This document shows, in pieces, positions 334-24,913 of a stretch of 37,508 bases of DNA. Both the position numbers and the translations under genes were made by a program. The notes beneath the pieces are model-generated. The model searched no databases and had not been told where the DNA came from. It saw only the letters and a program-made list of their open reading frames with translations. Source of the DNA: a candidate division WOR-3 bacterium (GTDB lineage: Bacteria; Hydrothermota; Tepidihabitantia; SM23-42). Position 1 is the first letter of the stretch, and the number at the start of each line of letters is the position of its first letter. The stretch spans positions 1 through 37,508 of the forward strand of contig JAOUFJ010000025.1 of assembly GCA_029858255.1 (NCBI GenBank), given 5' to 3'.

Positions 334-939
334 TCAGTATCCCCAGATCTCGTGTAGGTAGACAGACCTCCGGCATTGCGGGCATAAATACCGCAGGTGT
401 TCGCTGCGATAGGGCGGGACGTCCGCACTCTTCGGTATTGATTCTTCCCCGTACTCTTGAGACAAAACCAGAAACAAATTGGGGTTAGCATATGCCAGTT
501 CACCAACGCGTTTTGCAATCCAGAGTAGATGGGATCTCGTCGTGATGACTTCACCACATCGTTCACAGAATACCAGTTCTTTCTCGATTGCCTCTTCATA
601 GTTTTCTCTGGTGATGTCAGCAAGATCATATTCCTGCGTATGCTTTATGCCTTCTTTGGTAATACAGTAAGAAACACACTGGCCACAATAAATGCATTTC
701 TCAGGGTGGTAAATTTCGCGTCGGATACCTTTCGTTAAATCATCTTCCTGTGCACGGGCGTTTGCTGGACAAACCTCAACACACGCGCCGCAGAGTACGC
801 ACTTATCAAGATTGAATTCGATCTTGCCACGGAAGGCAGGTGCTGCAGGGGAAGGTTTGAACGGAAATTTCGAAGTATAAGGACCCTTGAATATCGCTCT
901 TATTGCCTCACCGAGTTCTCTCAACTTTGGTTTGCGCAT
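334..939 (-). CDS. mbhN: NuoI/MbhN-like ferredoxin subunit of the membrane hydrogenase
   Basis: A 201-aa protein with two [4Fe-4S] motifs, C47-x2-C50-x2-C53-x3-C57 and C82-x2-C85-x2-C88-x3-C92, as in NuoI, HycF and HyfH. These subunits carry electrons between the peripheral arm and the NuoB-like cluster. A C-terminal extension holds two more CxxC pairs (C125/C128 and C186/C189), probably a metal-binding ribbon like the one in HycF-type proteins. It is the last gene of the 18-gene unit and starts directly after the mrpG stop. This peripheral-arm subunit sits at the far end from the other Fe-S genes, with all the Mrp genes between, which suggests that the Mrp genes belong to the same complex. 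The family call is firm; the exact electron path is inferred. Confidence 0.9.
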   Translation of the reverse strand: MRKPKLRELGEAIRAIFKGPYTSKFPFKPSPAAPAFRGKIEFNLDKCVLCGACVEVCPANARAQEDDLTKGIRREIYHPEKCIYCGQCVSYCITKEGIKHTQEYDLADITRENYEEAIEKELVFCERCGEVITTRSHLLWIAKRVGELAYANPNLFLVLSQEYGEESIPKSADVPPYRSEHLRYLCPQCRRSVYLHEIWGY

Positions 940-1296
940 TTAGTTTTCCTCCCGTTCGATCTGTTCACCGCCAAGTTTGTCTTTTCCATACTGGTCGAGA
1001 ATAGTGCCTTTCCACATTTTTGTACCGAAATGCAGCGAACCCTTCATTAGAGCATGTGCAGCCACCGGACTCGTAAGCAGAAGCACCGCACCGCATATCA
1101 ATGCCTTTATACCCATTGGGCTGAATCCTTTTATAAGGAAAATACCGATCATGATACCGAACGTGCCAAGTGTTACGCATTTTGTCGATGCCTGGAGGCG
1201 GTTGTAAACGTCGGGAAAACGAATGAGGCCTATCGCACCCAAAAGATCGAATAATACGCCGACCCAGATGACGATCCATCCAATTGTGCTAATCAT
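940..1296 (-). CDS. mrpG: Mrp antiporter subunit G (MbhC-like)
   Basis: A 118-aa protein starting MISTIGWIV, with three predicted membrane helices and the family signature around FPDVYNRLQAS and TLGTFG. MrpG/MnhG/MbhC is a small subunit of Mrp-type Na+/H+ antiporters and of Mbh-type hydrogenases. I chose the ATG at 1296 over an in-frame ATG at 1377 because AAAAGGAG lies just upstream, the start then overlaps the mrpF stop by 8 bp, and the 27 extra residues would not match the family. The next gene follows without any gap. Confidence 0.9.
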   Translation of the reverse strand: MISTIGWIVIWVGVLFDLLGAIGLIRFPDVYNRLQASTKCVTLGTFGIMIGIFLIKGFSPMGIKALICGAVLLLTSPVAAHALMKGSLHFGTKMWKGTILDQYGKDKLGGEQIEREEN

Positions 1297-1543
1297 CGAG
1301 ACTCCTTTTCTCCAAATACTTAGCGAGAGCGATGGTGCCGATAAAACTAAACAGAGCAAGAGAGATAGAAAGATCAATCAAATAAGGAAGGTCATAGAAC
1401 AAGGCGCTCAATCCGGTGATCCCCACGAAAAGAATACCCATGATGTCCACGCCAACTGCCCGGTCTGAAATCGAAGGACCCTGGTAGATTCTGAAAAGAC
1501 AAAGAAATCCACCAATTGCAAGAATACTCACCAACGCGCTCAT
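1289..1543 (-). CDS. mrpF: Mrp antiporter subunit F (MbhB-like)
   Basis: An 84-aa hydrophobic protein with about three membrane helices and the MrpF signature RIYQGPSISDRAVGVD. It is a small membrane subunit of the Mrp module, which couples proton and sodium movement in Mbh-type complexes. It overlaps mrpE by 4 bp at its start and mrpG by 8 bp at its end, so translational coupling is likely. Confidence 0.9.
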   Translation of the reverse strand: MSALVSILAIGGFLCLFRIYQGPSISDRAVGVDIMGILFVGITGLSALFYDLPYLIDLSISLALFSFIGTIALAKYLEKRSLDD

Positions 1544-2025
1544 TCGAATATCCTCCTTAGAAATCTCTCAAAATGTGAAGCGATGATTTTCGAAGCTTGC
1601 TCTAATTCCGGCGATTGTATCCATATCCAATGAATATACAAATAATCACCATCTATGTCGCACGTCATGGTGCCGGGTGTCAATGTAATAGAATTGGCTA
1701 GAAACACTTTTGCGATATCAGTCTTCAGTACAGTCTTTATCTTCACGATGCCAGGTTTGATCGGTCTCTCTGGATGTAGTACACGATACGCGACATCCAC
1801 ATTTGCCTTGACCATGTACCAAAGGAAGATGGGTATGTATATGACAAACCACAATATTCTGTGGATTTGTAGAAACTTAACCGGCCTGTCTGTGAAATAC
1901 CCCCCGAAGACGATGGTCGCGAGCAAAACAACGATAACTCCGGCGATCAAATGATCAATATTAACACTCAGGGTTAGAAGAAGCCAAAAACAGAAAGCAA
2001 TGATAAAATAGATCACGTATCTCAT
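1540..2025 (-). CDS. mrpE: Mrp antiporter subunit E (MbhA-like)
   Basis: A 161-aa protein with N-terminal membrane helices and a soluble C-terminal part that contains the conserved stretch SITLTPGTMTCDIDGDYLYIHW, typical of MrpE/MnhE. It is thought to help assemble or stabilise the Mrp module. It lies 9 bp after mrpD and overlaps mrpF by 4 bp. As in archaeal Mbh, the order E-F-G is kept; here the trio follows mrpD. Confidence 0.9.
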   Translation of the reverse strand: MRYVIYFIIAFCFWLLLTLSVNIDHLIAGVIVVLLATIVFGGYFTDRPVKFLQIHRILWFVIYIPIFLWYMVKANVDVAYRVLHPERPIKPGIVKIKTVLKTDIAKVFLANSITLTPGTMTCDIDGDYLYIHWIWIQSPELEQASKIIASHFERFLRRIFE

Positions 2026-2034
2026 TCGACCTCC

Positions 2035-3537
2035 TTAAAAACTCATACCTACAGAACCAAAGACGAGATTTGCATATTCGACGCCTCTGAGCAATGCGTT
2101 TGCAGCAGGACCGACAAGAAAATCAATGACCTGTTGAAAGCCGATACCGAACAAGACAATTAAGACCACAAGGAAAACCATCGCAATACGCATCGTAAAA
2201 GGTGCTTTGTTCGCTTGCGTCCGTCCCTTTTTCATAAAGACATTGTTCTCAATCTTCAAAAGATAGCCCAGAGTCAAGACGCTAAATGCGATAGCGACAA
2301 TTGCCAACCACCAAAAGCCCGCCTTCAGGGCACCTAACACAATCAAGTATTTGGCAAAGAAACCAACCAGAGGCGGCAGGCCGATCAATGACATGCTGCC
2401 GAAGCGAAAACTCCATGCCGTTGTTGGCATGTGCTCGCCCAAACCTGCGAGTTTCGTAATATCACGCGTTCCTGTAGCGTTGACGACGGAACCCGATGTC
2501 AAGAACAACAAACCCTTGCCGAGTGCGTGGGCGAGTATGTAGAAAATCGCACCCGCCACACCGTAGTAGTTGCCAATGCCGAATCCTAACATGATATAAC
2601 CAACCTGAGAAACACTGGAATAACCTAATAACCTCTTATAATCCTTCTGACTGAGTGCGGTTATGCCAGCAAAGGCAATCGACAACAAACCCATTCCAAT
2701 CAGGACATTGAAGAAAACCGGAGCGTTCGCACGGTTCAGCCCGAAGATATTGAAGACCAAACGGGCCGTCGTATACATCCCGAGCACCTTAATGAAAATC
2801 CCGGAAAGCAAGCTTGATATAGGAGCTGGCGCTGCAGGATGCGCGTCAGGCAACCAGGAATGAAATGGTACAAAGGCAGCCTTGATAGAGAAAGCAAGAA
2901 GCATCATACCCAGAACCAGCCAGAAGAACGGGGTCTGTCCAACAACTTGGAGCACATTAGCCATATCAGCAAGATTGAGTGTCGAGGTCTTCGCATACAG
3001 TAATGCGATGGAAAGCAAGAAGGTCAAACCGCCGACCTCACCCATCACCATGTACTTGAACGAAGCCTCCAGCTCTTCAGCATCCACCCCGAATGCTACA
3101 AGCGCATATGATGATATCGCTGCGATCTCAAGAAATACGAACATGTTGAAGAGATCGCCCGTGATTGAGACACCCATCATCCCGGCGGTTATCAGCATGT
3201 ACAGTGTGTAGAACTTCCACTGTCCAGTGTAGTGAGACATATACCGCAAGGAAAAAATACTTCCGGCAAACACCAGTATCGATATAACAAGAACCATGAA
3301 AGCCGACAGTGAATCGAACGCCATTACGATCCCGAGTGGAGGCGGCCAATTGCCCATTTCGTAAACGATCATTGGAAACTGCTGGGTAACCGCGGCACCA
3401 TATAGCGCGAGGATGAAAAGAGCGAATGACACGAGAGTAACGAAAATCCATATTACGGACTTGGCGATCTTGCCCAAAATAGGAATAATGAAAGCAGCAG
3501 CCAAAGGTATGGCAAAAAATAACGGAATAAATGTCAC
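2035..3537 (-). CDS. mrpD: Mrp antiporter subunit D / MbhH-like ion-pumping subunit
   Basis: A 500-aa polytopic membrane protein of the NuoL/M/N-MrpA/D superfamily, of normal length. It keeps the residues expected in the ion channel: E137 in MFVFLEIAAISSY (TM5 region), the Lys in SIKAAFVPFHSWLPDAHPA (TM7 region), and His and Lys in ILAHALGKGLLF. The SWLPDAHPAAPAPISSLLSG block is diagnostic for functional antiporter-like subunits. It is preceded by mrpC (10 bp) and followed by mrpE (9 bp). It is probably one of three ion-translocating modules of the complex. Confidence 0.93.
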   Translation of the reverse strand: MTFIPLFFAIPLAAAFIIPILGKIAKSVIWIFVTLVSFALFILALYGAAVTQQFPMIVYEMGNWPPPLGIVMAFDSLSAFMVLVISILVFAGSIFSLRYMSHYTGQWKFYTLYMLITAGMMGVSITGDLFNMFVFLEIAAISSYALVAFGVDAEELEASFKYMVMGEVGGLTFLLSIALLYAKTSTLNLADMANVLQVVGQTPFFWLVLGMMLLAFSIKAAFVPFHSWLPDAHPAAPAPISSLLSGIFIKVLGMYTTARLVFNIFGLNRANAPVFFNVLIGMGLLSIAFAGITALSQKDYKRLLGYSSVSQVGYIMLGFGIGNYYGVAGAIFYILAHALGKGLLFLTSGSVVNATGTRDITKLAGLGEHMPTTAWSFRFGSMSLIGLPPLVGFFAKYLIVLGALKAGFWWLAIVAIAFSVLTLGYLLKIENNVFMKKGRTQANKAPFTMRIAMVFLVVLIVLFGIGFQQVIDFLVGPAANALLRGVEYANLVFGSVGMSF

Positions 3538-3547
3538 ACTCGCCTCC

Positions 3548-3886
3548 TTATCCTTTCAATTTTCTGATCTCTGCAATATCGAAAGTCTTATACCGGCTGT
3601 AGATACGCAGGACAACGGTCAACATTAGGGCTGTCGTTCCAAGAGCGATTACGATTGCGGTCAGTACGAGTGCCTGAGGAATCGGATCAACAAACTTGTG
3701 CGCCATATCGACCTTGGTGATTATCGGCGCCAACATTCCAGTCCGGAAACCAATCAACGCGAAGAGAAGGTTGATCGCATACTCAATAAGGGCGAAACCG
3801 ATGACGATTTTTATCATGTTGCGTTTGGTAACAATTGCATACAAACCTATCAAGAATAGAATGATACAGCTCAGGAAAATAATCAT
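3548..3886 (-). CDS. mrpC: Mrp antiporter subunit C / NuoK-like (MbhG)
   Basis: A 112-aa protein with three predicted helices, of the NuoK/MrpC family. An acidic residue lies in the second helix region (FALIEYAINLLFALIG), and the segment GFRTGMLAPI matches the MrpC loop. NuoK/MrpC subunits link the antiporter modules to the NuoH/MrpB region. It lies 13 bp after mrpB and 10 bp before mrpD, the usual B-C-D order. Confidence 0.9.
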   Translation of the reverse strand: MIIFLSCIILFLIGLYAIVTKRNMIKIVIGFALIEYAINLLFALIGFRTGMLAPIITKVDMAHKFVDPIPQALVLTAIVIALGTTALMLTVVLRIYSRYKTFDIAEIRKLKG

Positions 3887-3899
3887 ATAATACCTCTCC

Positions 3900-4334
3900 T
3901 CAGTCCTTCACCACATACTTGACAGCCGCGAGGGCAAGGAAAATGGAGAAAAGTCCCGCGCCAACCTTAATCCCGATTGCGATGTTACAGAATGGAATGA
4001 TCCCAGCGCTCCATAGGTTCAAGGCAATTCCCTTAGGTAGAAAATTGAGGAAGAATGTTCCGGCGATTATCATCCCGGCAAGAGCAATGCCGATGAATAA
4101 CAACGCACCGACACTCTCGAAAACCGAAGTCCTGGTCTCCGACTTCTTTTCATCGGCGGGTTCGCTCCCGAAAGCCAGTATTCTCAGGATCAAAGCACCC
4201 GCTACGATCACGCCACCGGCAAAACCACCTCCAGGTGTCAGGTGCCCGTGCAGGATAATATATACCCCATAGATGAAAATGAAACCGATTATGATCGTGG
4301 TAACCGTTCTGACTATCAGACTCATACCTTTCAT
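3900..4334 (-). CDS. mrpB: Mrp antiporter subunit B (MnhB domain, MbhF-like)
   Basis: A 144-aa membrane protein with the MnhB-domain signature GHLTPGGGFAGGVIVAGAL near residue 30-48 and four predicted helices. It starts by a 4-bp overlap with the preceding MbhD/E-like gene, as is common for mrpA/mrpB pairs. It is part of the Mrp module of the hydrogenase complex. Confidence 0.92.
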   Translation of the reverse strand: MKGMSLIVRTVTTIIIGFIFIYGVYIILHGHLTPGGGFAGGVIVAGALILRILAFGSEPADEKKSETRTSVFESVGALLFIGIALAGMIIAGTFFLNFLPKGIALNLWSAGIIPFCNIAIGIKVGAGLFSIFLALAAVKYVVKD

Positions 4335-4864
4335 TTCTTCCTCCCAACGCTACGAATAAGAGCAGCCACACCTATCACTGACGTAAAGAGAACTGTCGCC
4401 TCGCCAAGTGTATCAAGCGCCCGGAAATCCAAAATCACATCCGCAACGAGATTAGCACCGCCCGTTCCAGGTAGTCCAAGTCGGATATACTCACTAGCCA
4501 CCCTCATCGTCGCATTGCCAAATGCAGGTAATTCCTGCAGAGCATTTATGATCGCTATAAAAAAGAGCAGTGCGAAGAAAGAAAAGCTGACGATCGAAAA
4601 GACGTGGGGACCCGTCATTTTCTTACCGATAGTCTCATCGATGTGCGTGGTTTGGAAAATAACCGCTACGAAAATAACGATCGTCACAACCTCGACAACG
4701 ATCTGCACAATCGCAAGATCTGGAGCTTGAACGAGTATGAACATGATAGCAACTGAGAAACCAACCGCGCCAAGTGATATCACTGCAGCCAGCAGATCCT
4801 TGATCTCAGTGGCGATAAAGGCTGCTATTATCATGAAAACAAGAAAAAGATAGAGTTCAATCAT
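4331..4864 (-). CDS. MbhD/MbhE-like subunit (MrpA C-terminal-type, DUF4040)
   Basis: A 177-aa membrane protein. The N-terminal half, with LVQAPDLAIVQIVVEVV, matches the DUF4040/MbhD region, which corresponds to a C-terminal part of MrpA and to NuoJ. The C-terminal half, with FRALDTLGEATVLFTSVIGV, matches MbhE, another fragment of MrpA. In Pyrococcus these are two genes; here they are one. No full-length MrpA is present, so its roles appear divided between this protein and the antiporter-like subunits. Confidence 0.85.
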   Translation of the reverse strand: MIELYLFLVFMIIAAFIATEIKDLLAAVISLGAVGFSVAIMFILVQAPDLAIVQIVVEVVTIVIFVAVIFQTTHIDETIGKKMTGPHVFSIVSFSFFALLFFIAIINALQELPAFGNATMRVASEYIRLGLPGTGGANLVADVILDFRALDTLGEATVLFTSVIGVAALIRSVGRKK

Positions 4865-4876
4865 TCACGCCTCCCC

Positions 4877-6772
4877 TCAAAAAACCAAAATGAGTAGAAT
4901 TACAATACCACCGAGAAAAATCCAACCGACGTACGTGTATAACTCACCAGTGTGAAGCAAAGAAGTCAGATTCCCGATCATCCCTGCGATGCGCCCGACT
5001 ATTTTGTACATAGAGGTAATAATGCGGTCGATCACGTCTTTCGAGAGTATGGCGGCACCGTCTGCTGCACCACGCAGGTAGTTATAGAAATCAAACGCTC
5101 CGCCTTCACCGAAATCATAGGTCTTCTTGAGCATCTCCATGCTATTCAGGGAAGAATAGAAATTCGGTCCGGTCATCCTTGCTGCTTCTTCCTCCATGAT
5201 CTCGCCGCCGACGAATATACGGGTCCTTCTCGGTTTCATCGCCGTACCAATCAGATACACAATGAGACCCACAATAATACCCACGATGATAAGGACAGTT
5301 GCGAGGGTAGGCGACCAGAAACCCACTTCACTTATATCATATCCCAGGCTGGGCAAAACTAGATGCTTAAGAGGCAAAGCCTGTGCAAAAACACCAAAGG
5401 CGATACACCCGAGGGCAAGAAACAGTGCGGGTACGACCATCTCAAAACGTGCCTCACGAACTTTATTCAACTCTTTCGGTCTTTCCCCAAGGAAGATTGA
5501 ATGTATCAATTTAAGGCTATAGGCGAGGGTCAGAATACTACCGAACATTGCGCAAATGAGAAAAATGAACCAAATATTGATTTTATCACTCATCTCGATT
5601 ATGCCCTGATAAATCATCCACTTCGAGTAAAAGCCGTTCAATGGCGGAACTCCAGACAAGGCAAGTGCAGCCACCACAAAGGTGAATAGCGTATAAGGCA
5701 TTTTGACACCCAACCCACCAAGAGCATCCAGGTCCGTTGTTTTCGCTCGATAATCAACAGAACCCGTACTGAGGAATAGAGCGGATTTGTAGAGTACGTT
5801 GTTCAACATGTGAAACAAAGCACCGGCAATTGCGATCGGTATGCCCGTGCCGACTCCCAATACCATATATCCTGCCTGCGATACAGTAGAGAAAGCCAAC
5901 AGCCTTTGTGCATCCTTCTGCCATAATGCCATCAGCGCCATGAAGATGATGGTTATCGAACCGATTATCATCAATGTCAACTGCAAGGGAACATACTTTG
6001 TGATGTCGAAAATGTTGTATGAGATCCTCATCAGAAGATAGAAGCCAAGCAGTTTATCCAGACTACCTGGTATGAACGCCATGGTCGATGCAGGAACGAC
6101 TTTCGATGCCTCGGGTATCCATGTGTGCAGAGGAACCGTACCGAGCTTGGCCAGCACGCCGACCAGGATCATTACATATGACACCACCAGCCAGACATCG
6201 GTGAAACGAAGCGTATTCTCGAGAGGAAAATTGAGATTACCGGTCCTCACAAGAAATATGACGATACCAAGCATCATCAAGTAATCCGAGACGCCAATAA
6301 TAGTTATCGCCTTGCGTGCCGCTGGCGAACTATATACCTTGCCTACCTGCAGAATACCGTAGAGCGAGAAAACGAGCACATTCCAGAAGAGCAAGAGGAA
6401 TATCAGATTACCACTTAGAACAACACCATTAGCGGCAGAAAGAGTGAGAGCAACGTATAAGTAGTATACTCTCTCACGCGGCATCTTCGACATTGCCCTT
6501 AAGGAATAGAGCCATATGAGAATGGCGAAGATGGCGTTAAAAAGAACAATAAACCCGGCCAGGCTATCGGCGTAGAATCTAAAGTCAATGCCAATGATTG
6601 ACGCAACGTTGTAGGATATTATCTGGGTTCTCGTAGCAATGAAGATTCGTATCGCATACCACAGCGTCAATATGAACGCCACAAGGTCAAATTCGGTCCG
6701 AAGACGATTGATGACAAAACCGAGCAGGCCGAAAAATATTGGCGCAACTATGACATAATATATCTCATTCAT
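4877..6772 (-). CDS. NuoL/HycC/EchA-like antiporter subunit (631 aa)
   Basis: A large polytopic protein of the proton-antiporter superfamily with a C-terminal extension, as in HycC, HyfB and EchA: an RIFVGGE motif, then a soluble loop and a last helix. The TM7 region keeps its Lys (KLGTVPLHTWIPEA), and HMLNNVLYKSALF keeps His and Lys. The TM5 position that normally carries the essential Glu (WE) reads FWNVLV, with Asn131. This may alter or stop ion translocation through this module while leaving its structural role. It lies 2 bp after the 402-aa antiporter-like gene and 12 bp before the MbhD/E-like gene. Confidence 0.9.
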   Translation of the reverse strand: MNEIYYVIVAPIFFGLLGFVINRLRTEFDLVAFILTLWYAIRIFIATRTQIISYNVASIIGIDFRFYADSLAGFIVLFNAIFAILIWLYSLRAMSKMPRERVYYLYVALTLSAANGVVLSGNLIFLLLFWNVLVFSLYGILQVGKVYSSPAARKAITIIGVSDYLMMLGIVIFLVRTGNLNFPLENTLRFTDVWLVVSYVMILVGVLAKLGTVPLHTWIPEASKVVPASTMAFIPGSLDKLLGFYLLMRISYNIFDITKYVPLQLTLMIIGSITIIFMALMALWQKDAQRLLAFSTVSQAGYMVLGVGTGIPIAIAGALFHMLNNVLYKSALFLSTGSVDYRAKTTDLDALGGLGVKMPYTLFTFVVAALALSGVPPLNGFYSKWMIYQGIIEMSDKINIWFIFLICAMFGSILTLAYSLKLIHSIFLGERPKELNKVREARFEMVVPALFLALGCIAFGVFAQALPLKHLVLPSLGYDISEVGFWSPTLATVLIIVGIIVGLIVYLIGTAMKPRRTRIFVGGEIMEEEAARMTGPNFYSSLNSMEMLKKTYDFGEGGAFDFYNYLRGAADGAAILSKDVIDRIITSMYKIVGRIAGMIGNLTSLLHTGELYTYVGWIFLGGIVILLILVF

Positions 6773-6774
6773 TT

Positions 6775-7983
6775 CTACAATCCCCCTGTGGTCAGATAAT
6801 GCACTGGTTGATAGAAGAATATTCCGAGCAGCAGTGAAACCATCGCGAGGATAAACACCACTGCCACGCCCGTGTAACTCGGCCGTTTGGCGCGCAGTTT
6901 GTAGACATCACATCTCTCTCCAAAGAAGAGTTCATGGTAAAATCTGGTGTTGTATAGTAGCGTAAAAATCGCCGCCACTATTGCTCCGATTCCGAAATAG
7001 GCAGTCTTTTCAACCGCTCCAATCACCACCGTCAATTTCGAAAAGAACCCAAGCATTGGGAAGAATCCGACAATTGAACCGACCAGCATCGCCATGGAGA
7101 CTGCGAGAACGGGTGACAATCTGAGCAAACAGGCAACATTCCTCATATCATCTTCGCCTGTGGCATCCTCGATGACACCCACACCGTAGAACAATCCCGA
7201 TTTAGCCAAAGCATGCGCCGCGATGTACAGAACGCCTCCGAGTATTCCATAGGTACCTCCCACTGCGAAGGCGAGTATCACAAAACCCAGCTGGCTAATA
7301 GTCGAGAAAGCTAGCAGGCTCCGGAGTTTATACACTCTCAGTGCGACACCGCCTCCGATGATGCTGGAAATGATAGCAATCCACGCCACAGTGTTGAAGA
7401 ATACAGGAGCAGCATAATTACCCATAGTAAAGAGACGGAGGAAGAGGATTGCACCAAGATTCTCTGCTATGCCTGCCAGACTGGCGCCTATCGCCGAGGG
7501 GATGGCGTTATAGGCAGGTGCCAGCCAGATATGGAGAGGGATCGTAACCGACTTGGTGAGTATCCCGATCAAGATCAATATCGCTGCCGTGTCATTTATT
7601 ACGATGATCCCCGGTAAATTGAATGTCCCATTATCCATGTACAGTATCGAAAATCCGATCAGCATCAGGGTCGCAGCCGCAAAATTGACCAGGAAGGTGA
7701 GCGTACCGGCAGATATCTCACCGTCCCCACGGTAATAGGCAACTGCCCTCCACACCGCAAATGTTGAGATTTCCCAGAGTATGTACATCAACAATAGATT
7801 ATATGTCAACGCGACGCCCACACCAGATCCGACGATCAGAAAGAGCATGATGTAGAATTCCAGGCGATGTCCCTTTTCTCGATTTGTAGCCAGACCGTAT
7901 ATCAGAGACATAAGACCAATAAAAACAAATATTGCACTGAGGAAAATCCCATAATGGTCAACGAAAAAATCTAATCCAATCAT
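6775..7983 (-). CDS. NuoN/NuoM-like antiporter subunit, short form (402 aa)
   Basis: A polytopic protein of the NuoL/M/N superfamily. It keeps the TM5 Glu (E71 in LWEISTF), a TM7-type Lys (TKSVTIPLHIWLAPA) and His/Lys in IAAHALAKSGLF, so it looks able to move ions. E71 lies about 65 residues earlier than in typical 480-510 aa homologues, so one or two N-terminal helices appear to be missing. The start overlaps the large-subunit gene by 4 bp, which supports the chosen ATG and argues against a longer product. Confidence 0.88.
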   Translation of the reverse strand: MIGLDFFVDHYGIFLSAIFVFIGLMSLIYGLATNREKGHRLEFYIMLFLIVGSGVGVALTYNLLLMYILWEISTFAVWRAVAYYRGDGEISAGTLTFLVNFAAATLMLIGFSILYMDNGTFNLPGIIVINDTAAILILIGILTKSVTIPLHIWLAPAYNAIPSAIGASLAGIAENLGAILFLRLFTMGNYAAPVFFNTVAWIAIISSIIGGGVALRVYKLRSLLAFSTISQLGFVILAFAVGGTYGILGGVLYIAAHALAKSGLFYGVGVIEDATGEDDMRNVACLLRLSPVLAVSMAMLVGSIVGFFPMLGFFSKLTVVIGAVEKTAYFGIGAIVAAIFTLLYNTRFYHELFFGERCDVYKLRAKRPSYTGVAVVFILAMVSLLLGIFFYQPVHYLTTGGL

Positions 7984-9155
7984 CGCCGATATCTCCTTCT
8001 TAGTTTTTCGGTCTTTTGTCGCGAAAGTTGTAGTAAATCATGTCCCGTGAATTTTTTCTTTCCATCTTCGAAAACAACTGTACGTTCGGTGCAACAGTAG
8101 CACGGGTCGACAGCAGCAAGAACCAGCGCAGCATCAGCAATTGAATAACCCCTGACAGCGACAACGTTCGATGGTATATTCATATAACTGGGCGCCCGTA
8201 TCTTGTGTCTCGCCGGCATGTTTGAACCGTCAGAGCGCACATAGTGGAACACCTCACCGCGGGGAGCTTCGTGCCTGCCTATACCTTCACCCGGTGGGAT
8301 TTCATCGACCCTGGCCTCGATCGGACCATCTGGCATATCTCTCAAGCATTGTCTTACGATTTTTATCGACTCGTAGCACTCAAGCAGTCGCACCTTTGCC
8401 TTCGCTAAAATGTCTCCTTCTTCGAAGACAATCATATCCCAATCAACCTTGCCATAAGCGTCGTATGGATCATCCTTACGAACATCGATTGCGTACCCAG
8501 AGCCCCGGGCAGTCGGACCCAAAACCCCATAGGCAATCGCGTCCTCTTTGGACAAGATACCGACGTTCTCGAGCCTGGCTCGGATGACCGGGTCGTCGAG
8601 CACGGCTTTGGTGAACATGGTCGTTTTTTCTTCAACAAGATCCAAATACTCCTCGATCTTACCGTAATATTCGGGCGGTATATCGCGACGCGCGCCTCCG
8701 ACCTTGTTGACAGCGTAATGATTGCGGTTACCCATTATCAACTCAAAAATATCAAGCAACGGCTCGCGATAACGCCAGACCCACATCCACACCGTGTTAT
8801 AGCCAATGAAATGCCCGGCAAGGCCAACCCATAGATAGTGAGAATGTATGCGCTCCAACTCACCGATAATCGTCCTTATGTACTGCGCACGCGGCGGTGG
8901 TTCAATACGCGCCGCATCCTCAACTGCCAGGACATATGCATACGGGTGCGAGTCGGAACAGATACCGCATATTCTCTCCACCAGGAAGGGAATTTGGTCG
9001 TAAGTCATTTTCTGAGCAATGAATTCGTGTCCGCGGTGGTTGTAGCCGATATTTATCTCAAGATCCACGACCTTTTCCCCTTCGACGATAAGCTTGAAGA
9101 ACTCAGGTTCCTCCTGAAGCGGATGGTAAGGACCAATCGGTACTATTCTCTTCAC
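7980..9155 (-). CDS. mbhL: Group 4 [NiFe] hydrogenase large (catalytic) subunit, NuoD-like
   Basis: A 391-aa protein with both Ni-binding motifs intact: RICGICSDSH (C63, C66) near the N terminus and DPCYCCTER (C352, C355) near the C terminus. These four cysteines hold the Ni-Fe(CN)2CO site and are lost in complex I NuoD, so this is a hydrogenase. After Arg358 a basic tail of 33 residues remains, close in length to the tail HycI removes from E. coli HycE; it is probably cut by the protease encoded at 14973-15449. C354 is an unusual extra cysteine inside the second motif. The gene overlaps both neighbours by 4 bp. Confidence 0.95.
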   Translation of the reverse strand: MKRIVPIGPYHPLQEEPEFFKLIVEGEKVVDLEINIGYNHRGHEFIAQKMTYDQIPFLVERICGICSDSHPYAYVLAVEDAARIEPPPRAQYIRTIIGELERIHSHYLWVGLAGHFIGYNTVWMWVWRYREPLLDIFELIMGNRNHYAVNKVGGARRDIPPEYYGKIEEYLDLVEEKTTMFTKAVLDDPVIRARLENVGILSKEDAIAYGVLGPTARGSGYAIDVRKDDPYDAYGKVDWDMIVFEEGDILAKAKVRLLECYESIKIVRQCLRDMPDGPIEARVDEIPPGEGIGRHEAPRGEVFHYVRSDGSNMPARHKIRAPSYMNIPSNVVAVRGYSIADAALVLAAVDPCYCCTERTVVFEDGKKKFTGHDLLQLSRQKTEKLRRRYRR

Positions 9156-9640
9156 TGGTCCTCCTTGGTTTTCTCGATTTTGAACTCCTTATGTTCATCG
9201 GCATAGTCACGCCTTAATGGATGCAGATCAGCCGGCCACGTTTCTGCCGTAAGGAGCGGTACCAGGTTCGGGTGACCCGTGAAGTCAACACCTAATAACT
9301 CATGGATCTCCCGTTCAATCCAATTAGCAGCCGGCAGGAAATCGGCCAGACTTTTTACCTTCGGGTCATCCTTCGGCACGAGTGTTTTGATGCTGTAGTA
9401 AGTTCCACTCGGGTCATGCGAGAAATGATAGAGTATCTCAATGCCGTCACGTTTGTCAATGCCGGTCGCAATGGATAAACGGCATTTTTTTTCTTCGAAT
9501 AGGAATTTGGCAAATTCGTATACATCGTCCCTGGATATGCTGATGTAAGTGCGGCGCGGTGCGTGAATCTTCACCGATGCATGCGGGAATTTTGCGCCGA
9601 TCTCATCCAGTATTTCCTGTGAATATTCTTTTTTCATCAT
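9152..9640 (-). CDS. mbhK: NuoC-like subunit of the membrane hydrogenase (MbhK)
   Basis: A 162-aa protein of the 30-kDa complex I subunit family. It shows the family's C-terminal block: WIEREIHELLGVDFTGHPN, then HPLRRDY. It binds the large subunit and helps form the hydrogenase core. It is separate from the NuoD-like gene, unlike HycE, where the two are fused. It overlaps the genes on both sides by 4 bp. Confidence 0.92.
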   Translation of the reverse strand: MMKKEYSQEILDEIGAKFPHASVKIHAPRRTYISISRDDVYEFAKFLFEEKKCRLSIATGIDKRDGIEILYHFSHDPSGTYYSIKTLVPKDDPKVKSLADFLPAANWIEREIHELLGVDFTGHPNLVPLLTAETWPADLHPLRRDYADEHKEFKIEKTKEDQ

Positions 9641-10053
9641 AACCTCTTTAGTGCCTTCACTACACCGCTGATTATCGCCTCCGGCTTCGGAGGACAGCCT
9701 GGAATATAGACATCCACTGGAATATACTTGTCATAGGGGCCCACTACGTTATATGATGGCTCGAACATATGATTGTCACAAGTACAGGTCCCGACGCCGA
9801 TAACAAGACACGGTTTGGACGTTTGTTCGTATACACGCAGCACACGGGGTAGCGATTTACGGTTTAGCACGCCGGTTATCAACAGTGCATCGGCGTGCCT
9901 CGGTGAACCCACCAGGACAATGCCGAAACGCTCAACATCCCACCGCGGCGTCAGAATATCCAATATCTCGATATCGCAATTATTGCATGAAGCTGCGGCC
10001 ACGTGAAATACCCAGGGAGATTTTTTCAGTCCCCAAAGTTTAGCATTCGCCAT
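9637..10053 (-). CDS. mbhJ: [NiFe] hydrogenase small subunit, NuoB-like (MbhJ)
   Basis: A 138-aa protein with cysteines C23, C26, C90 and C120 placed as in NuoB, HycG and EchC; they bind the single proximal [4Fe-4S] cluster next to the Ni-Fe site. The blocks SCNNCDIEILD, LTPRWDVERFGI and PGCPPKPEAI are typical of group 4 hydrogenases. C92, two residues after a ligand (GTCTC), is an extra cysteine. It lies 11 bp after the NuoH-like gene. Confidence 0.95.
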   Translation of the reverse strand: MANAKLWGLKKSPWVFHVAAASCNNCDIEILDILTPRWDVERFGIVLVGSPRHADALLITGVLNRKSLPRVLRVYEQTSKPCLVIGVGTCTCDNHMFEPSYNVVGPYDKYIPVDVYIPGCPPKPEAIISGVVKALKRL

Positions 10054-10064
10054 ATCATTCTCCT

Positions 10065-10985
10065 TTATAAACCGTAAACAGCAAGAACCAACCCGATCAC
10101 AGACAAGACGCCAATTCCCAGCCAGAAAAATCTAAGGGATTGGTCTATTCGGATCCTGGGATTGGTATTCTTTATGAGTATTATAAGAACGACAATTAAC
10201 AGGAATTTCAGAATTGCCCACCAAGTACCGAAACCTCCCCACAGTACCGATATGAGAAAAAGCGGCAGAAGAAAAAACATCATCGCACGCACAACACGGA
10301 ACGTGGCAAGAGCCACGCCTGAATATTCAATATAGGGACCGGCCATAATCTCCTGTTCAGCCTCGGGAATATCGAACGGTACGAAACCAAGTTTCGCCTG
10401 CGTCGATAGTAGAATAACGACAGCTCCTATGACACCAGAAATGGAATACAAAAAAGGCCCCTGGGCCTGCTGTGCCAAGATGATATCGCCGAACCTGATG
10501 CTCCCACCGGCCTTAAGGATGATGGTGGCAATAGTGATCAAGAAGGGCAGTTCATACGCAAAATACTGGGTCATCTCACGAGATACCCCAACACTCGCCA
10601 GCGGATTCTTGGAAGCGGAACCACCGATCATGAGACCCAACGGCGGTATAGCTAGAAGGTAGACCATTACGATTAGATCACCGACAAAAGTGCCGCCTGG
10701 GTTCATGTTCATTGAAAAAATCATCACTGCAAAGATAGTCATCGCCACGAGGCCGATAATCGGGCCCATCAGGAACAAGATCTTCGAACTTCCTTCAGGA
10801 ATTATCGTCTCTTTGAGGAGCAGTTTAAGAAAGTCAGCATATGGCTGATACCATGGTGGACCCACGCGCCAATGGATACGCGCCGTTACTTTACGATCAA
10901 TCCACGTAAGAAAAAGACCGACCACCGCAGTAAAGATAAAACCCGGGAATATAAGATATGAAAAAAGAACTCTGACTACACTCAT
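10065..10985 (-). CDS. mbhM: NuoH-like membrane subunit (MbhM/HycD/EchB)
   Basis: A 306-aa protein with about eight membrane helices that anchors the hydrogenase core in the membrane and forms the entrance of the coupling channel. Conserved blocks include TWIDRKVTARIHWRVGP, ASKNPLASVGVSREMTQYF and VPFDIPEAEQEIMAGPYIEYSG, with the Glu-rich loop found in NuoH. The start overlaps the stop of the ferredoxin-like gene by 4 bp. Confidence 0.94.
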   Translation of the reverse strand: MSVVRVLFSYLIFPGFIFTAVVGLFLTWIDRKVTARIHWRVGPPWYQPYADFLKLLLKETIIPEGSSKILFLMGPIIGLVAMTIFAVMIFSMNMNPGGTFVGDLIVMVYLLAIPPLGLMIGGSASKNPLASVGVSREMTQYFAYELPFLITIATIILKAGGSIRFGDIILAQQAQGPFLYSISGVIGAVVILLSTQAKLGFVPFDIPEAEQEIMAGPYIEYSGVALATFRVVRAMMFFLLPLFLISVLWGGFGTWWAILKFLLIVVLIILIKNTNPRIRIDQSLRFFWLGIGVLSVIGLVLAVYGL

Positions 10986-11452
10986 GACTTTCTCCTGAAA
11001 AATAAATCCTTCGACACCATTCTCATGCCAATCTCATGCTGCTCGATTTCCTCATCAGATAGCCATTGAAGTGCACCAGATGAACAAGCACTAACACATC
11101 TCGGCCCTTCTTCGCGATCAGCACACAAACTGCATTTTTGCGAAATGTGTCTGACCAGAGGCGCATCGATGACGCCAAAGGGACAGGCGAATGCACAGCC
11201 TTTGCATCCTATGCAGACCATGGCCGAGCGAATAACATAGCCGGTACTGTCATCCCTCGTAATCGCCTCTACAGGGCACGATGCGAGACAGAGCGGCTGT
11301 TTACAGTGCTTACAGGCAAGCGGCAGGTATGCTATCCCGGCGATATCTCCGTGTCGAATACGCGCTTCACCTTTGAATGCTGCCTTACAGGCCGCCTCAC
11401 AGGACCGACAACCACAACATAAATCAAGGTCCAGCACTATTCTTTTCTGCAT
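10982..11452 (-). CDS. HycB/HydN-like polyferredoxin with four [4Fe-4S] motifs
   Basis: A 156-aa protein of the DMSO-reductase beta / HycB family. Cysteines lie in four groups: C12 or C13/C15/C18/C22, C47/C50/C55/C59, C80/C83/C86/C90 and C107/C110/C119/C123. In formate hydrogenlyase the HycB protein carries electrons from the formate dehydrogenase subunit to the hydrogenase. Here its partner is the NuoG/FdhA-like gene just upstream, which it overlaps by 16 bp. I infer that it links the NAD(P)H module to the hydrogenase core. Confidence 0.9.
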   Translation of the reverse strand: MQKRIVLDLDLCCGCRSCEAACKAAFKGEARIRHGDIAGIAYLPLACKHCKQPLCLASCPVEAITRDDSTGYVIRSAMVCIGCKGCAFACPFGVIDAPLVRHISQKCSLCADREEGPRCVSACSSGALQWLSDEEIEQHEIGMRMVSKDLFFRRKS

Positions 11453-13011
11453 ATTTTCACCTCGGTTGGAATAAAATTGACTGTTTGGAGTTCGTTATCG
11501 ATCTCGTATTCAAAAAGACCACGCACACTGGGAGTTTCTGCTGCCACCGCTACTACTCCCTGACCAACATCCTCAGTGATTTTCACTGGCAGGTCTGCAC
11601 TGCTTTGCTTCGATGTAATCGACGCCGTATCATGAGCCCCGATGCCCAGTTCGGCAGCATCAAAGGGATTGATCTTCAGCGCCTCTCCTTCAAGAAACCC
11701 GAGAAAATTGTAGGCAACTTTCTCGCCGACTAACTTGAATGACTTCTTCTTTGTCCCAGTTATCTCAGTAATTCTGCGTGCCCGTTCCTTAACATCTATT
11801 TTCTTCTCAACGGAATTCGGCACTTTACCTTTACTGGATTCGCTGGACAGCATCGACAATATTGCTTCTATAGATTTTACACCACTGGGAGGGTCGATAT
11901 TGCCGGTCAATTTCCTTTTTCCGAATGTTGTGACGACGGTACCTTCTTTTTCAATATTGAGTGGTACGGGAAGCAGAGTTTGGTCCTTGTGCTTCAACGT
12001 TGAGGTCGCATAGATATTCGCGCCTTTCAATTTATCGACCAGCTGAGGATAGTAGAATGGGAAGAGTTCACCAAAATTGATCAGGTTCTTAATTTTCTTT
12101 TTCTTGACCATCTCGATGATTGCAGGAAAACTCTGATTGCCATCATACCCCGCAAACTCAACGAACGGCACAACCTTCATATCGCTGAATTCATGCATTC
12201 GATTAAGACCTTCCGCACACAACGCCGGATCGTAGGTGTGTCCAAACGGCAGAGAAGCATAAATAAGACCTTTACCACTGTTCTTGATGGCATTGGATAA
12301 CCGTTTGACTATACCGCCATCGATCCCCGTTGCTGTGGCGATATCCATACCACCAATATTTTCCTGCGCGAGACCTAAAAGCAGCAGGGGTTCGGTACCT
12401 ATATTAACCTTCAAAAACTGACTTGCAAATCCGGCCGTGTGTGTGTTCAACGAATCAATGACGACAAGTTCATTTCTCTTATCCTTCATCTTCCATTCGA
12501 TAATAGCGCGCGATGACATTGGTGCTTGATTGAATAAATCGCCCAGCACAAATACGATATTTGCCTTGTCAAGATCGGCTGGAGCAAAAGGCTGTTCCAA
12601 GAAGGGACGTAGGATATGTTCGGGTTCAAAATATGTTGATGCAGTATATTGGATACCCACACTGTCGCAGAAGCCAAGGATCGCAGCGTACTCCTCAGGT
12701 GTGACATTGCGGTCAAACGTTACCGCGGCGCTCTTCGGACTGCCAACTACCTTGCCCAGTTCCTTGGCCATTTTTGACCAAACAACAGCTTTGCCACTCT
12801 TCAGAGGTATTGTTGATCGCCGAGGATGGTCCAGATATATCGCTGCAGCACTTCCCCTGGGACAGAGTCTTCCATTGTTGTTTCCATCCTTAACGTACTC
12901 GACACCCTTTATTCCAAAATCGTTGAATACTATGCCGAATTCACAGCCAAAACTACAGAATGGACAAAGTGCCCGCTTGACAGTTATCGTCTTAGGATCG
13001 ATATTCTTCAT
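11437..13011 (-). CDS. Shortened molybdopterin-oxidoreductase-family protein, NuoG/FdhA-like, probably non-catalytic
   Basis: A 524-aa protein. The N terminus has the [4Fe-4S] motif of this family, C16-x2-C19-x3-C23-x26-C50, followed by PRG. The middle is shorter than in formate dehydrogenases (about 700 aa). The C terminus (about residues 440-500) resembles the dinucleotide-binding domain, with KINPFDAAELGIG and VGQGVVAV. Where FdhA carries its catalytic Cys or Sec, with a following His, I see no such residue and no in-frame TGA. It therefore looks like NuoG: an Fe-S scaffold rather than a formate dehydrogenase. Formate use cannot be excluded from sequence alone. It overlaps its neighbours by 4 bp (upstream) and 16 bp (downstream). 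Confidence 0.78.
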   Translation of the reverse strand: MKNIDPKTITVKRALCPFCSFGCEFGIVFNDFGIKGVEYVKDGNNNGRLCPRGSAAAIYLDHPRRSTIPLKSGKAVVWSKMAKELGKVVGSPKSAAVTFDRNVTPEEYAAILGFCDSVGIQYTASTYFEPEHILRPFLEQPFAPADLDKANIVFVLGDLFNQAPMSSRAIIEWKMKDKRNELVVIDSLNTHTAGFASQFLKVNIGTEPLLLLGLAQENIGGMDIATATGIDGGIVKRLSNAIKNSGKGLIYASLPFGHTYDPALCAEGLNRMHEFSDMKVVPFVEFAGYDGNQSFPAIIEMVKKKKIKNLINFGELFPFYYPQLVDKLKGANIYATSTLKHKDQTLLPVPLNIEKEGTVVTTFGKRKLTGNIDPPSGVKSIEAILSMLSSESSKGKVPNSVEKKIDVKERARRITEITGTKKKSFKLVGEKVAYNFLGFLEGEALKINPFDAAELGIGAHDTASITSKQSSADLPVKITEDVGQGVVAVAAETPSVRGLFEYEIDNELQTVNFIPTEVKICRKE

Positions 13012-13823
13012 AGAAACGGCTCCTCGATATCCTTAACTTCTTCCCATGTAAGAACCGGACCGTCCTTACAAACATAGAATTTCCCGACGCGACAGTGATT
13101 GCACTTGCCCAAGCCACAGGACATATTCTTCTCCATCGATAGATATATATTCTCGTGTTTAAAACCAACTTCCACCAGCCTCTGGGTCGAGAATTTCATC
13201 ATGAGCGGCGGTCCGCAGACTACGGTAGGCGAAGTTTTGACATCCACAGGAACCTTGTCAAGAATGACAGTCACAACGCCGACTCGACCCTTCCAAGATT
13301 CATCACCAACATCCACTGTCATCAACAGATCAACCCGGTCAATTTTCTGCCACTCGGGAATAAGACGTTTGTAGACTATATCCTGTGGTGTCCTGGCACC
13401 GTATCGTACATAGATTTTTTTGTAGCTCTTCAAATCGTGCAGCAATGCCAGGAACAGCGATCGCAGTGGAGCAAAACCCACGCCGCCACCGACGATGAAC
13501 ACTTCCTTACCCTTAAAATTCTGTAATGGATACGGTTTTCCGAAAGGCCCCCTGACACCAACAAGATCACCCTCCTTCATATTGAACAGCGCGTCGGTAA
13601 CGCGCCCAACCTTCATGATCGTGAATTCCATATCGTCGTCGTATGGTGATGAGGAAGGTGTGAACGGCGCCTCGCCCATGCTGGGTATGGTCAATTCGGC
13701 AAACTGCCCTGCTTCGAAATCGAAAGGTTTACCGTCCAGTATGAAAGTTGTGATATTTGGCGTCTCGGGGATTATTTTCTTGATCTTAATCGGAATTGGA
13801 TAATAGGGATTTATATGTTCCAT
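13008..13823 (-). CDS. NAD(P)H/FAD/[2Fe-2S] oxidoreductase, sulfhydrogenase gamma (HydG) / AsrB-like
   Basis: A 271-aa protein of the ferredoxin-NADP reductase type. An FAD-binding beta barrel comes first (about 1-95), then a nucleotide-binding domain with IVGGGVGFAPLRSLF and CGPPLMMKF, then a C-terminal [2Fe-2S] motif C236-x4-C241-x2-C244-x7-C252. Family members (sulfhydrogenase gamma, anaerobic sulfite reductase B, dihydroorotate dehydrogenase electron-transfer subunit) exchange electrons with NAD(P)H. It overlaps the HydB-like gene by 13 bp and the NuoG-like gene by 4 bp, so I infer that it is the NAD(P)H-reacting module of the membrane hydrogenase. Confidence 0.9.
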   Translation of the reverse strand: MEHINPYYPIPIKIKKIIPETPNITTFILDGKPFDFEAGQFAELTIPSMGEAPFTPSSSPYDDDMEFTIMKVGRVTDALFNMKEGDLVGVRGPFGKPYPLQNFKGKEVFIVGGGVGFAPLRSLFLALLHDLKSYKKIYVRYGARTPQDIVYKRLIPEWQKIDRVDLLMTVDVGDESWKGRVGVVTVILDKVPVDVKTSPTVVCGPPLMMKFSTQRLVEVGFKHENIYLSMEKNMSCGLGKCNHCRVGKFYVCKDGPVLTWEEVKDIEEPFL

Positions 13824-14815
13824 AGAATCTCCCTTATATCTATTTTAGCCGAACAACCCAATAGACATCTCCCGCAGCCTGAGCAGGCAAGGATGTTCTC
13901 ATATTTCATGAAAAAGTCAAACTTGCACTGGAAGCGGTTCCAGAATCGTTCGTCAATTCGGCTGCGCGGATTTGCACCACCACCTACGCGAGCATAAGCA
14001 GCATAATAACATGTATCCCATATCCTGACGCGCTCAATATCCTTTCCTTTCTTGTAGTCACTCAAGAGAAAGCAGTAGCATGTCGGGCACGCATGCAAAC
14101 AAGCGTGACATTCCACGCATTCATCACGTGCGTTACGAATCCTCGCTTTATCCGCTGCCTCCACGCGCGCTGGTAGATCTTTCCTAAACGGTTTGCTGTT
14201 TATTTTGTTGAGTTCCCTGATCGCTTTTTCCCGCATCGACTTACGCTCTTTCTCATCGTCATCCTTTGCTTCCGTAAATATGCTCTTGTATGCATCGATG
14301 ATTTCCTCTCCTCTTTTTGTGTAAGCCTCGAACAGCAAACCAGCAGGCAATTCTGTGAAGTTCAGGTCACAAGTGGCATCACCGTACGGATTGAGACCTA
14401 ACAGATTGCAGAAACAGGAATCTTCAGGTTCCGGGCAATCGGCTGAGATTACAATTGTCTTATCCCTACGCTCTTTGTAAAATGGGTCAACTGGTTCCCA
14501 CCCCATGAAAACGCGGTCGTAGATATCAACGCCTCTCAGGTCACAGTTCTTTACACCAAAGAGATATCGCTTCTCGACCTGTCTTGCCTCATCCTTGGGG
14601 AACTTAGCCACTGTATCCCGGCTCGGGAAAAAGAATTGTTTGATGTTCTCCGCGGTTCTTATCTTCGCGAAGTCAGGTTTGAATTCGTGAGCGTCATCAA
14701 ACCTCACGAGATGCGTCCTGCCCTCCTCGAACATCGGATAATACAGCGACCCATCCCTTGATAGTTCTCTTACAAAAGTCAATATTTTATCTGGGGATAG
14801 TAGATAGCATTTCAT
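13811..14815 (-). CDS. Sulfhydrogenase beta (HydB) / AsrA-like Fe-S protein
   Basis: A 334-aa protein with two C-terminal [4Fe-4S] motifs, C233-x2-C236-x2-C239-x3-C243 and C311-x2-C314-x2-C317-x3-C321, and more cysteines in the N-terminal part (C91 in VKNCDLRG, C127, C134, C136). This matches sulfhydrogenase beta and anaerobic sulfite reductase A, which pair with a gamma/AsrB flavoprotein as here. It is the first gene of the 18-gene unit. A consensus promoter ends 8 nt before the ATG and no ribosome binding site fits in between, so a leaderless mRNA is likely. Confidence 0.9.
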   Translation of the reverse strand: MKCYLLSPDKILTFVRELSRDGSLYYPMFEEGRTHLVRFDDAHEFKPDFAKIRTAENIKQFFFPSRDTVAKFPKDEARQVEKRYLFGVKNCDLRGVDIYDRVFMGWEPVDPFYKERRDKTIVISADCPEPEDSCFCNLLGLNPYGDATCDLNFTELPAGLLFEAYTKRGEEIIDAYKSIFTEAKDDDEKERKSMREKAIRELNKINSKPFRKDLPARVEAADKARIRNARDECVECHACLHACPTCYCFLLSDYKKGKDIERVRIWDTCYYAAYARVGGGANPRSRIDERFWNRFQCKFDFFMKYENILACSGCGRCLLGCSAKIDIREILWNI

Positions 14816-14823
14816 AGAAGCTT

Positions 14824-14851
14824 ATTATATTAATTTTGTATACCCTGTCAA
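14824..14851 (-). promoter_or_regulatory. Promoter of the hydrogenase operon, probably leaderless
   Basis: On the minus strand TTGACA (14851-14846) and TATAAT (14829-14824) are separated by 16 bp. Both boxes match the sigma70 consensus exactly. Only 8 nt lie between the -10 box and the ATG at 14815, so the transcript should begin at, or 1-2 nt before, the start codon. Confidence 0.8.
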
Positions 14852-14971: not shown

Positions 14972-14994
14972 ATTATCTGATTTGTTCAGATAAT
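14972..14994 (-). terminator. Perfect 9-bp inverted repeat over the stop codon of the protease gene
   Basis: ATTATCTGA (14972-14980) and TCAGATAAT (14986-14994) flank a 5-nt loop and include the TAA stop of the protease gene (14973-14975). A stem-loop here could end or stabilise the transcript. It is not followed by a clear T run on the minus strand, so a standard intrinsic terminator is uncertain. Confidence 0.4.
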
Positions 14995-15449
14995 GCCTCA
15001 TAGATGTCTATTATACAAACGCGGTGACCGATGTCAATATTGTTCAGAACACCAATGATCCGATCAGCAGTCTCCTTCACGGGCGTCGTGATGCATTCAT
15101 AAGAAAACGCAGGCATTCCAAGAAAGAATATGTCCTTCACTCCGCCATCGATCAGGAATTCGCACATCGCGCCGAGAGACAGGTTATGCGTTGATACGGA
15201 CACCGTGCTCAGTCTAAAAATCTCTTGACTTCTCAAGAGAACGCAATTTCGCGACTCTTTGTCAATTGTATCCACGAGAATAACCAAATCGGGGGATAAT
15301 GAGATTATTCTATTCAGGTAGTTCTCAGGATACAGACCGCAGTCGAGTTTCTTAAGCATATCACTCTCCTGGAGGTGTTCAACAACATAAGGGCCAAACG
15401 CATCGTCTCCGCGTTCGGTATTGCCTATTCCACATACTACAATACGCAT
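14973..15449 (-). CDS. hycI: Hydrogenase maturation protease, HycI-type (peptidase M52)
   Basis: A 158-aa protein that starts MRIVVCGIGN and then ERGDDAFGPYV, the nickel-sensing motif of M52 proteases. D16, an Asp in LVDTID (D60 or D63) and H88 in STHNLSL correspond to the three metal ligands of HycI. These enzymes cut the C-terminal tail of the large subunit after Ni insertion; the large subunit encoded at 7980-9155 has a fitting tail. The gene lies upstream of the hydrogenase operon on the same strand, with its own promoter. Confidence 0.9.
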   Translation of the reverse strand: MRIVVCGIGNTERGDDAFGPYVVEHLQESDMLKKLDCGLYPENYLNRIISLSPDLVILVDTIDKESRNCVLLRSQEIFRLSTVSVSTHNLSLGAMCEFLIDGGVKDIFFLGMPAFSYECITTPVKETADRIIGVLNNIDIGHRVCIIDIYEALSEQIR

Positions 15450-24800: not shown

Positions 24801-24913
24801 TTGCCAAAATTCTTGTCACTCAATGCCCTTTTAAACACGATATATTCAGAAACCGAGCATCATCCCAAACCAAATACTTGGGTGGTATGAGATGTATGAA
24901 AGGAGCAGAATTA

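Follow-up and report, generated by a model that had tools for sequence, protein, structure and literature searches.

A sulfhydrogenase-type input module accompanies group 4g-type [NiFe] hydrogenases and suggests an ion-coupled NAD(P)H:proton oxidoreductase

Which electron donor serves the group 4g [NiFe] hydrogenases? HydDB lists the group as 'ferredoxin-coupled (putative)', with its role undetermined (PMC5037454), and genome papers draw its members as ferredoxin-fed pumps, following that guess. The question is raised by an operon in a 37,508-nucleotide stretch of a candidate division WOR-3 genome (GenBank assembly GCA_029858255.1, contig JAOUFJ010000025.1, positions 1 to 37,508; hereafter the window). 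There, 18 contiguous open reading frames (ORFs) occupy positions 14815 to 334 of the minus strand, neighbours overlapping or lying at most 13 bp apart, and join a sulfhydrogenase-type HydB/HydG pair to a group 4 hydrogenase core and an Mrp-type membrane arm. The products of this operon probably assemble into a single membrane complex, an ion-translocating NAD(P)H:H+ oxidoreductase with an Mrp-linked, 4g-type group 4 [NiFe] hydrogenase as its base. A wider proposal, whose chances we regard as about even, is that much of group 4g has this function: an ion-coupled NAD(P)H:proton oxidoreductase, widespread among bacteria as a respiratory complex, that joins a sulfhydrogenase diaphorase to an Mrp-linked [NiFe] hydrogenase, with the WOR-3 form adding a molybdenum-free NuoG-like relay and resembling an H2-making complex I. 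An earlier interpretation of the DNA letters (the sequence-only reading) had described an 18-gene, one-strand unit with gaps of at most 13 bp; the ORF list confirms this unit, and Pfam and NCBIfam scans bear out the gene identities given to it.

HydB and HydG accompany the hydrogenase far beyond the window. An unbiased scan using only the large subunit returned 474 relatives, of which 80 were kept; these 80 span about ten phyla, namely WOR-3/Stahlbacteria/TA06, Omnitrophota, Elusimicrobiota, Latescibacterota, Nitrospirota, Planctomycetota, Fibrobacterota, Kiritimatiellota and Aerophobetes, together with records labelled Clostridia. HydB and HydG lie upstream on the same strand in 45 of the 46 loci with at least 6.5 kb of upstream sequence, and in the single exception (L096) the HydB-HydG pair is found at another site of that genome. 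A dispersed version, with NuoC-NuoD-NuoI in one place and HydB-HydG elsewhere in the same genome, is seen in L096, L091 and L154. When the NuoG-like protein, which has homologues in 58 of 61 genomes, was used to retrieve class relatives, the block HydG-NuoG-HycB-NuoH-B-C-D was contiguous in all 20 loci and preceded by HydB in 19, the twentieth contig beginning inside HydG; the gene order of the operon is kept in relatives. In one genome (G010, a single-contig assembly), HydB is split into two overlapping pieces at distant sites (L145:8584-9835 (-) and L041:14827-15582 (-)), likely an assembly or scaffolding artefact. The constitutive presence of HydB/HydG in about ten phyla suggests a donor for group 4g, so far guessed, and this linkage, together with the structure and sequence matches below, supports the main idea of the sequence-only reading, a complex linking NAD(P)H to H2.

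That reading had also given the NuoG-like gene a place in the layout. Co-occurrence with the large subunit holds for HydB/HydG and fails for the NuoG-like gene, which is absent outside one clade: 14 of the 45 loci have it between HydG and HycB, and these NuoG-containing loci cluster together in the tree of the large subunit, requiring one change (SH-like approximate likelihood-ratio test (SH-aLRT) support 94). The gene has a single origin and is nearly confined to the WOR-3 lineage, an addition of that lineage and not part of a general layout. A Latescibacterota metagenome-assembled genome (MAG; L062) falls inside the group, through transfer or mis-binning. The HydG tree recovers the same group (100) and places all 4g-type HydG in a clade of their own (SH-aLRT 99), apart from the host's Flx-Hdr-type paralogues, a group 3b HydG and SHI gamma. 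Both trees are quick ones with long outgroup branches; their agreement indicates that the input module was inherited with the core.

The input pair itself is related to a solved NADPH oxidoreductase, the Pyrococcus furiosus sulfhydrogenase SHI (group 3b). HydB (13811..14815, minus strand, as are all operon genes below; 334 aa), a sulfhydrogenase beta-like, or AsrA-like, Fe-S subunit, scores 156 bits against NCBIfam ShyB and 142 bits against HydB. Its AlphaFold2 (AF2) model has only two significant Protein Data Bank (PDB) matches, both SHI beta (9nf0_B, TM 0.80, E 3e-26), its best PDB sequence match by phmmer is the same subunit (9nez_B, 1.8e-36), and 16 cysteine positions are invariant across 13 homologues. 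HydG (13008..13823, 271 aa; Pfam NAD_binding_1 and DHODB_Fe-S_bind), the gamma-like, or AsrB-like, FAD-NAD(P)-[2Fe-2S] subunit, has SHI gamma as its best PDB sequence match (9nez_C, 8.7e-48), and its NAD-binding GGGVG, its CGPP and its [2Fe-2S] cysteines 236, 241, 244 and 252 are invariant among the 12 homologues aligned. The pair thus carries the fold, the Fe-S cysteines and the FAD/NAD(P)/[2Fe-2S] motifs of sulfhydrogenase beta and gamma, but the NCBIfam equivalog cut-offs for SHI are unreached, so the module is related to SHI and is not SHI itself. Furthermore, SHI is a soluble enzyme whose large subunit belongs to group 3, whereas the pair in the window would feed a membrane group 4 core. 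The AsrABC cut-offs are likewise unreached (AsrA, 80.6 against 323 bits; AsrB, 222 against 289 bits), and the ORF list and domain scans reveal neither AsrC nor NuoE/NuoF among the operon ORFs. Flx-Hdr and Asr (AsrAB) complexes have the same type of NAD(P)H pair, but there it feeds heterodisulfide-reductase-like or sulfite-reductase partners. Two more such pairs in the same genome, at L141:14700-16579 (+) and L142:7644-9504 (+), form the ends of Hdr-like clusters, which resemble NADH-linked complexes of the Flx-Hdr kind. In a Planctomycetales MAG (L109:410-4958 (+)), a group 3b-like cluster of HydB, HydG, small and large subunits and a protease immediately precedes the 4g cluster.

The hydrogenase core is that of an intact group 4 [NiFe] enzyme, the group to which the sequence-only reading had assigned it. 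The large subunit (NuoD-like; 7980..9155; PF00346, PF00374) contains the Ni-Fe ligand motifs RICGIC and DPCYCC, and both ligand pairs recur in every one of the 100 sequences checked. It is accompanied by a NuoB-like small subunit with the proximal [4Fe-4S] cluster (9637..10053; PF01058, 3e-27), a NuoC-like subunit (9152..9640; PF00329, 8e-28), a NuoH/MbhM-like membrane anchor (10065..10985; PF00146, 3.8e-64) and a HycF/NuoI-like 2x[4Fe-4S] subunit with C-terminal CxxC pairs (334..939), the product of the last gene, whose nearest PDB match is HycF of formate hydrogenlyase (FHL; 7z0s_F, 3.6e-18). Both CxxC pairs and the NuoB, NuoC, NuoH and NuoI partners identify a group 4 [NiFe] hydrogenase; Ehr and Mbx lack the Ni-Fe cysteines that are present here. 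A HycB/CooF-like polyferredoxin (10982..11452; Pfam Fer4_11) has 16 cysteines for four [4Fe-4S] sites, with HycB3 of the hydrogen-dependent CO2 reductase (HDCR) and Escherichia coli FHL HycB as its nearest PDB matches. In FHL, HycB is the subunit that carries FdhF. The nearest solved relative of the large subunit is MbhL (6cfw_L, 1.8e-83; 42.7% identity), followed by HycE (34.7%), and it falls in a clade with a published 4g member. That member, from Ca. Saelkia tenebricola (Omnitrophota; L079), was typed 4g and drawn as an Mrp-linked membrane-bound hydrogenase (Mbh), ferredoxin-coupled (putative) (PMC8542988); its large subunit is 63.7% identical to that of the window, and our 4g assignment is made through this proxy. 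As in the window, the Ca. Saelkia enzyme is Mrp-linked with intact Ni-Fe ligands. HydB-HydG-HycB lie upstream of it, without the NuoG-like gene, an input unmentioned in that study (PMC8542988).

From these features we infer the physical assembly, electron path, cofactor and direction of the complex. Electrons would pass from NAD(P)H to the FAD and [2Fe-2S] cluster of HydG and on to the [4Fe-4S] clusters of HydB, then through the single cluster of the NuoG-like protein to the four clusters of the HycB-like protein, and presumably through the HycF/NuoI-like subunit and NuoB to the Ni-Fe site, where protons and H2 would interconvert. NuoH, the three antiporter-like subunits and the Mrp subunits would move Na+ or H+. 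NADH lies near -290 mV, and H2 between about -270 mV (1 Pa) and -355 mV (1 kPa). NADH oxidation to H2 being nearly thermoneutral or uphill, inward ion flow driving H2 formation would be likelier than strong pumping; the most likely direction would be a near-equilibrium one, with ion influx pushing NADH electrons to H2 in fermentation, reversible where H2 is plentiful. NADH would be slightly preferred as cofactor. In seven loci of other phyla, phmmer places a Rex-like gene directly upstream of HydB, ending at most 187 bp from it and in L078 overlapping it, and the three Rex-like proteins scanned contain Put_DNA-bind_N and CoA_binding. Rex senses NADH/NAD+, so these Rex-linked operons are probably tuned to NADH. 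As a regulator in the window's own genome Rex is rejected, being absent there. The HydG loop YGAR is nearer that of NADH-using NqrF than the NTAR of SHI gamma, a resemblance too weak to count for either cofactor.

Four points weigh against this proposal. The AF2 model of HydB has a mean predicted local distance difference test (pLDDT) score of 80.6 and is low around two cysteine segments. Among 41 WOR-3 relatives Rex was found in only one, and the genome of the window has none. Electron transfer from NADH to H2 is thermoneutral or uphill unless H2 is very low, and the three antiporters need explaining. Finally, ferredoxin could enter at the HycF/NuoI-like or HycB-like subunit.

This last point leads to the rival that survives best, which we consider unlikely: a ferredoxin-fed, Mbh-type pump with HydB/HydG as a side exit, so that electrons from ferredoxin and NAD(P)H would be mixed on their way to H2, with ion export. 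The putative ferredoxin label in HydDB and in the Omnitrophota study (PMC5037454, PMC8542988) and the position of MbhL as nearest solved relative speak for it, and bioelectrochemistry has established that electron transfer from ferredoxin to H2 releases energy able to drive pumping. Yet HydB/HydG are never missing where visible, the HycB-like protein covers the NuoI-type subunit in the manner of FHL, a complex that ferredoxin does not enter, and HydB/HydG have a single flavin and no known bifurcating site. The host genome (2.72 Mb) also holds a group 3c Mvh-type hydrogenase by HdrA/B/C-like genes (L004:1234-7851 (+)), an [FeFe] hydrogenase on the same contig as that cluster (G000:C13:51185-51880) and Rnf on C7 (L144), so that redox carriers are exchangeable in this host.

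Improbable, and less favoured again, is that the complex works as an H2-uptake machine, an ion-pumping relative of the soluble 3b/3d enzymes that oxidises H2 in H2-rich habitats, supplying biosynthesis with reduced NAD(P) while exporting ions. Reversibility is common among group 4 enzymes, the H2-linked Mvh-Hdr and Rnf are encoded in the same genome, and a 2025 WOR-3 survey describes the phylum as hydrogenotrophic (PMC12542636). However, H2 and NAD+ differ little in potential unless H2 is high, which would leave ion export weak, and no genomic mark fixes the uptake direction.

The NuoG-like protein (11437..13011, 524 aa, one [4Fe-4S] cluster) invites a third explanation, that it is a formate dehydrogenase (FDH) feeding H2 production in a formate hydrogenlyase or formate-respiring complex, as in groups 4a and 4b. 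Its AF2 model (pLDDT 90.8) has the molybdopterin-oxidoreductase fold, with Foldseek matches to nitrate reductase (Nap), FDH-H, FdhF of FHL (7z0t_A, TMq 0.78) and NuoG (TMq 0.64-0.70); its best hidden Markov model matches are FDH alpha, and its neighbour is HycB. Furthermore, WOR-3 genomes are said in the survey to oxidise formate by FDH (PMC12542636). We aligned 19 homologues with MAFFT and included two positive controls, E. coli FdhF and an FDH of L067. The four Fe-S cysteines all match FdhF, but in all 19 proteins the equivalent of selenocysteine (Sec) 140 is Tyr and Arg333 is lost, and His141 is replaced by Phe, Leu or Val; the protein is also about 190 aa shorter than FdhF. The MoaA C-domain and MoeA, for synthesis of the molybdenum cofactor (Moco), had no match in any of the 41 genomes searched, whereas 11 of 14 control genomes were positive. 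With the catalytic residues lost and Moco synthesis genes absent, the NuoG-like protein is not a formate dehydrogenase, and the formate explanation is rejected as extremely improbable.

The protein is instead probably a one-cluster relay or scaffold, as is NuoG. E. coli FHL (4a) and the Thermococcus fdh-mfh-mnh system (4b) share with the window operon an FDH-fold protein, HycB and a HycF-type relay; those complexes have a catalytic FDH, with Sec/Cys-His-Arg and a molybdenum-bis-pyranopterin guanine dinucleotide (Mo-bis-PGD), whereas the window's protein has lost those residues and is catalytically dead, in genomes without Moco genes. Given the absence of Moco synthesis from the 41 genomes searched, some FDH assignments in the survey may be this dead FDH-fold protein (PMC12542636), and formate oxidation should not be inferred from the NuoG-like gene in WOR-3 genomes. 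Between NuoG-containing and NuoG-free groups, HycB and NuoB show the largest drop in identity, which is suggestive only. Elsewhere, at L143:5888-12538 (+), a NuoE-NuoF-NuoG-like trio is followed by PyrK-like and GltD-like genes and resembles Nfn-ABC-type bifurcating complexes; the NuoG-like protein there has 752 aa and belongs to a lineage in which the searches turned up no Moco genes.

The proposed NAD(P)H:H+ oxidoreductase can be compared with two better-known machines. Mbh uses ferredoxin and has one MrpD-type subunit. The window operon shares the core and the Mrp arm with archaeal Mbh (4d), but adds four input genes and has three antiporter-like subunits; Mbh has no dedicated flavoprotein input, in contrast to the HydB-HydG pairs described above. 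The NuoEFG module of complex I is matched in having a flavoprotein, a NuoG-like relay, the NuoI/NuoB order and three antiporters, whereas the operon is without NuoE/NuoF, retains the [NiFe] site and its ligands, and offers no evidence of quinone. It would be a natural hybrid of formate hydrogenlyase, Mbh and complex I, and a dead FDH fold used as a relay would bear on the origin of the NuoG position in complex I. Should HydB/HydG prove to be the true entry point, redox balance would have to be redrawn for many uncultured fermenters (Omnitrophota, WOR-3, Elusimicrobiota and others): they could dispose of NADH, and not ferredoxin alone, as H2, either spending or gaining an ion gradient.

The sequence-only reading knew of no described complex with exactly this set, but the gene set is not undescribed: in 2019, Saganbacteria RX5A was reported to have a hydrogenase with Mrp, an unclassified molybdopterin-type protein, cooF, asrA and asrB, called 'enigmatic', with relatives in Zixibacteria and Omnitrophica and a hypothesised Mbh-like function (PMC6349859). 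Compared by description only, this is the same reported gene set as in the window. The main text of that paper is without the molybdenum loss, the NAD(P)H path, the distribution or the Rex link. The WOR-3 survey treats Mvh-Hdr, hydABDG and Rnf, and no passage describing this complex was found there (PMC12542636); a partial literature search found no paper proposing NAD(P)H input for 4g. New here are the universality of HydB/HydG, the lost molybdenum chemistry, and the connections to Rex and to group 4g.

The membrane arm of the operon consists of three antiporter-like proteins, an MbhD-MbhE fusion and MnhB/C/E/F/G, confirming an Mrp association. Antiporter-like subunits 1 (6775..7983, 402 aa; PF00361, 4e-47) and 2 (4877..6772, 631 aa; PF00361, 4e-49), both with Proton_antipo_M, are followed by the MbhD-MbhE fusion (4331..4864; PF13244, PF20501), MnhB/MrpB (3900..4334; PF04039), the NuoK-like MnhC/MrpC (3548..3886; PF00420), MnhD/MrpD as antiporter-like subunit 3 (2035..3537, 500 aa; PF00361, 1.6e-65), MnhE/MrpE (1540..2025; PF01899), MnhF/MrpF (1289..1543; PF04066) and MnhG/MrpG (940..1377; PF03334), whose start is probably near 1296 rather than at the TTG at 1377. 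The antiporters had been read as a fixed part of the layout, but the arm is variable, with three antiporters and no Mrp subunits in L048 and one antiporter and no Mrp subunits in L051, the simplest variant at ten genes. Both loci keep the input module and the hydrogenase core, forming a natural series of membrane-arm sizes.

A single promoter had been assigned to the operon, and a perfect TTGACA-N16-TATAAT box is indeed present (14824..14851, minus strand), its -10 box ending 8 nt before the HydB ATG. It is held at the same place, 7-8 nt before the ATG, in nine genomes of the family and is therefore more than a chance match; its distance from the ATG implies a leaderless mRNA. Upstream, a HycI-type hydrogenase maturation protease with its own promoter (14973..15449, minus strand; TIGR00072, above cut-off) also adjoins HydB in relatives, and hypB and hypF, named from their sequence, lie at 24797-27788. 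Between hycI and HydB lies a 58-aa ORF that has a promoter-like box of its own; it was rejected as chance because its amino acid sequence is unconserved beyond the hycI overlap. TTGACA-N15/18-TATAAT boxes occur in the window (14851-14824 (-), 15483-15456 (-) and 15519-15546 (+)) and in L035, L036, L038, L039, L043, L142 and L144. The first ATG lies 5-8 nt downstream in 18 of 25, about six of these being a repeat inside hycI that may be a coding coincidence, and the pattern points to leaderless transcription as a habit of the window's WOR-3 genus.

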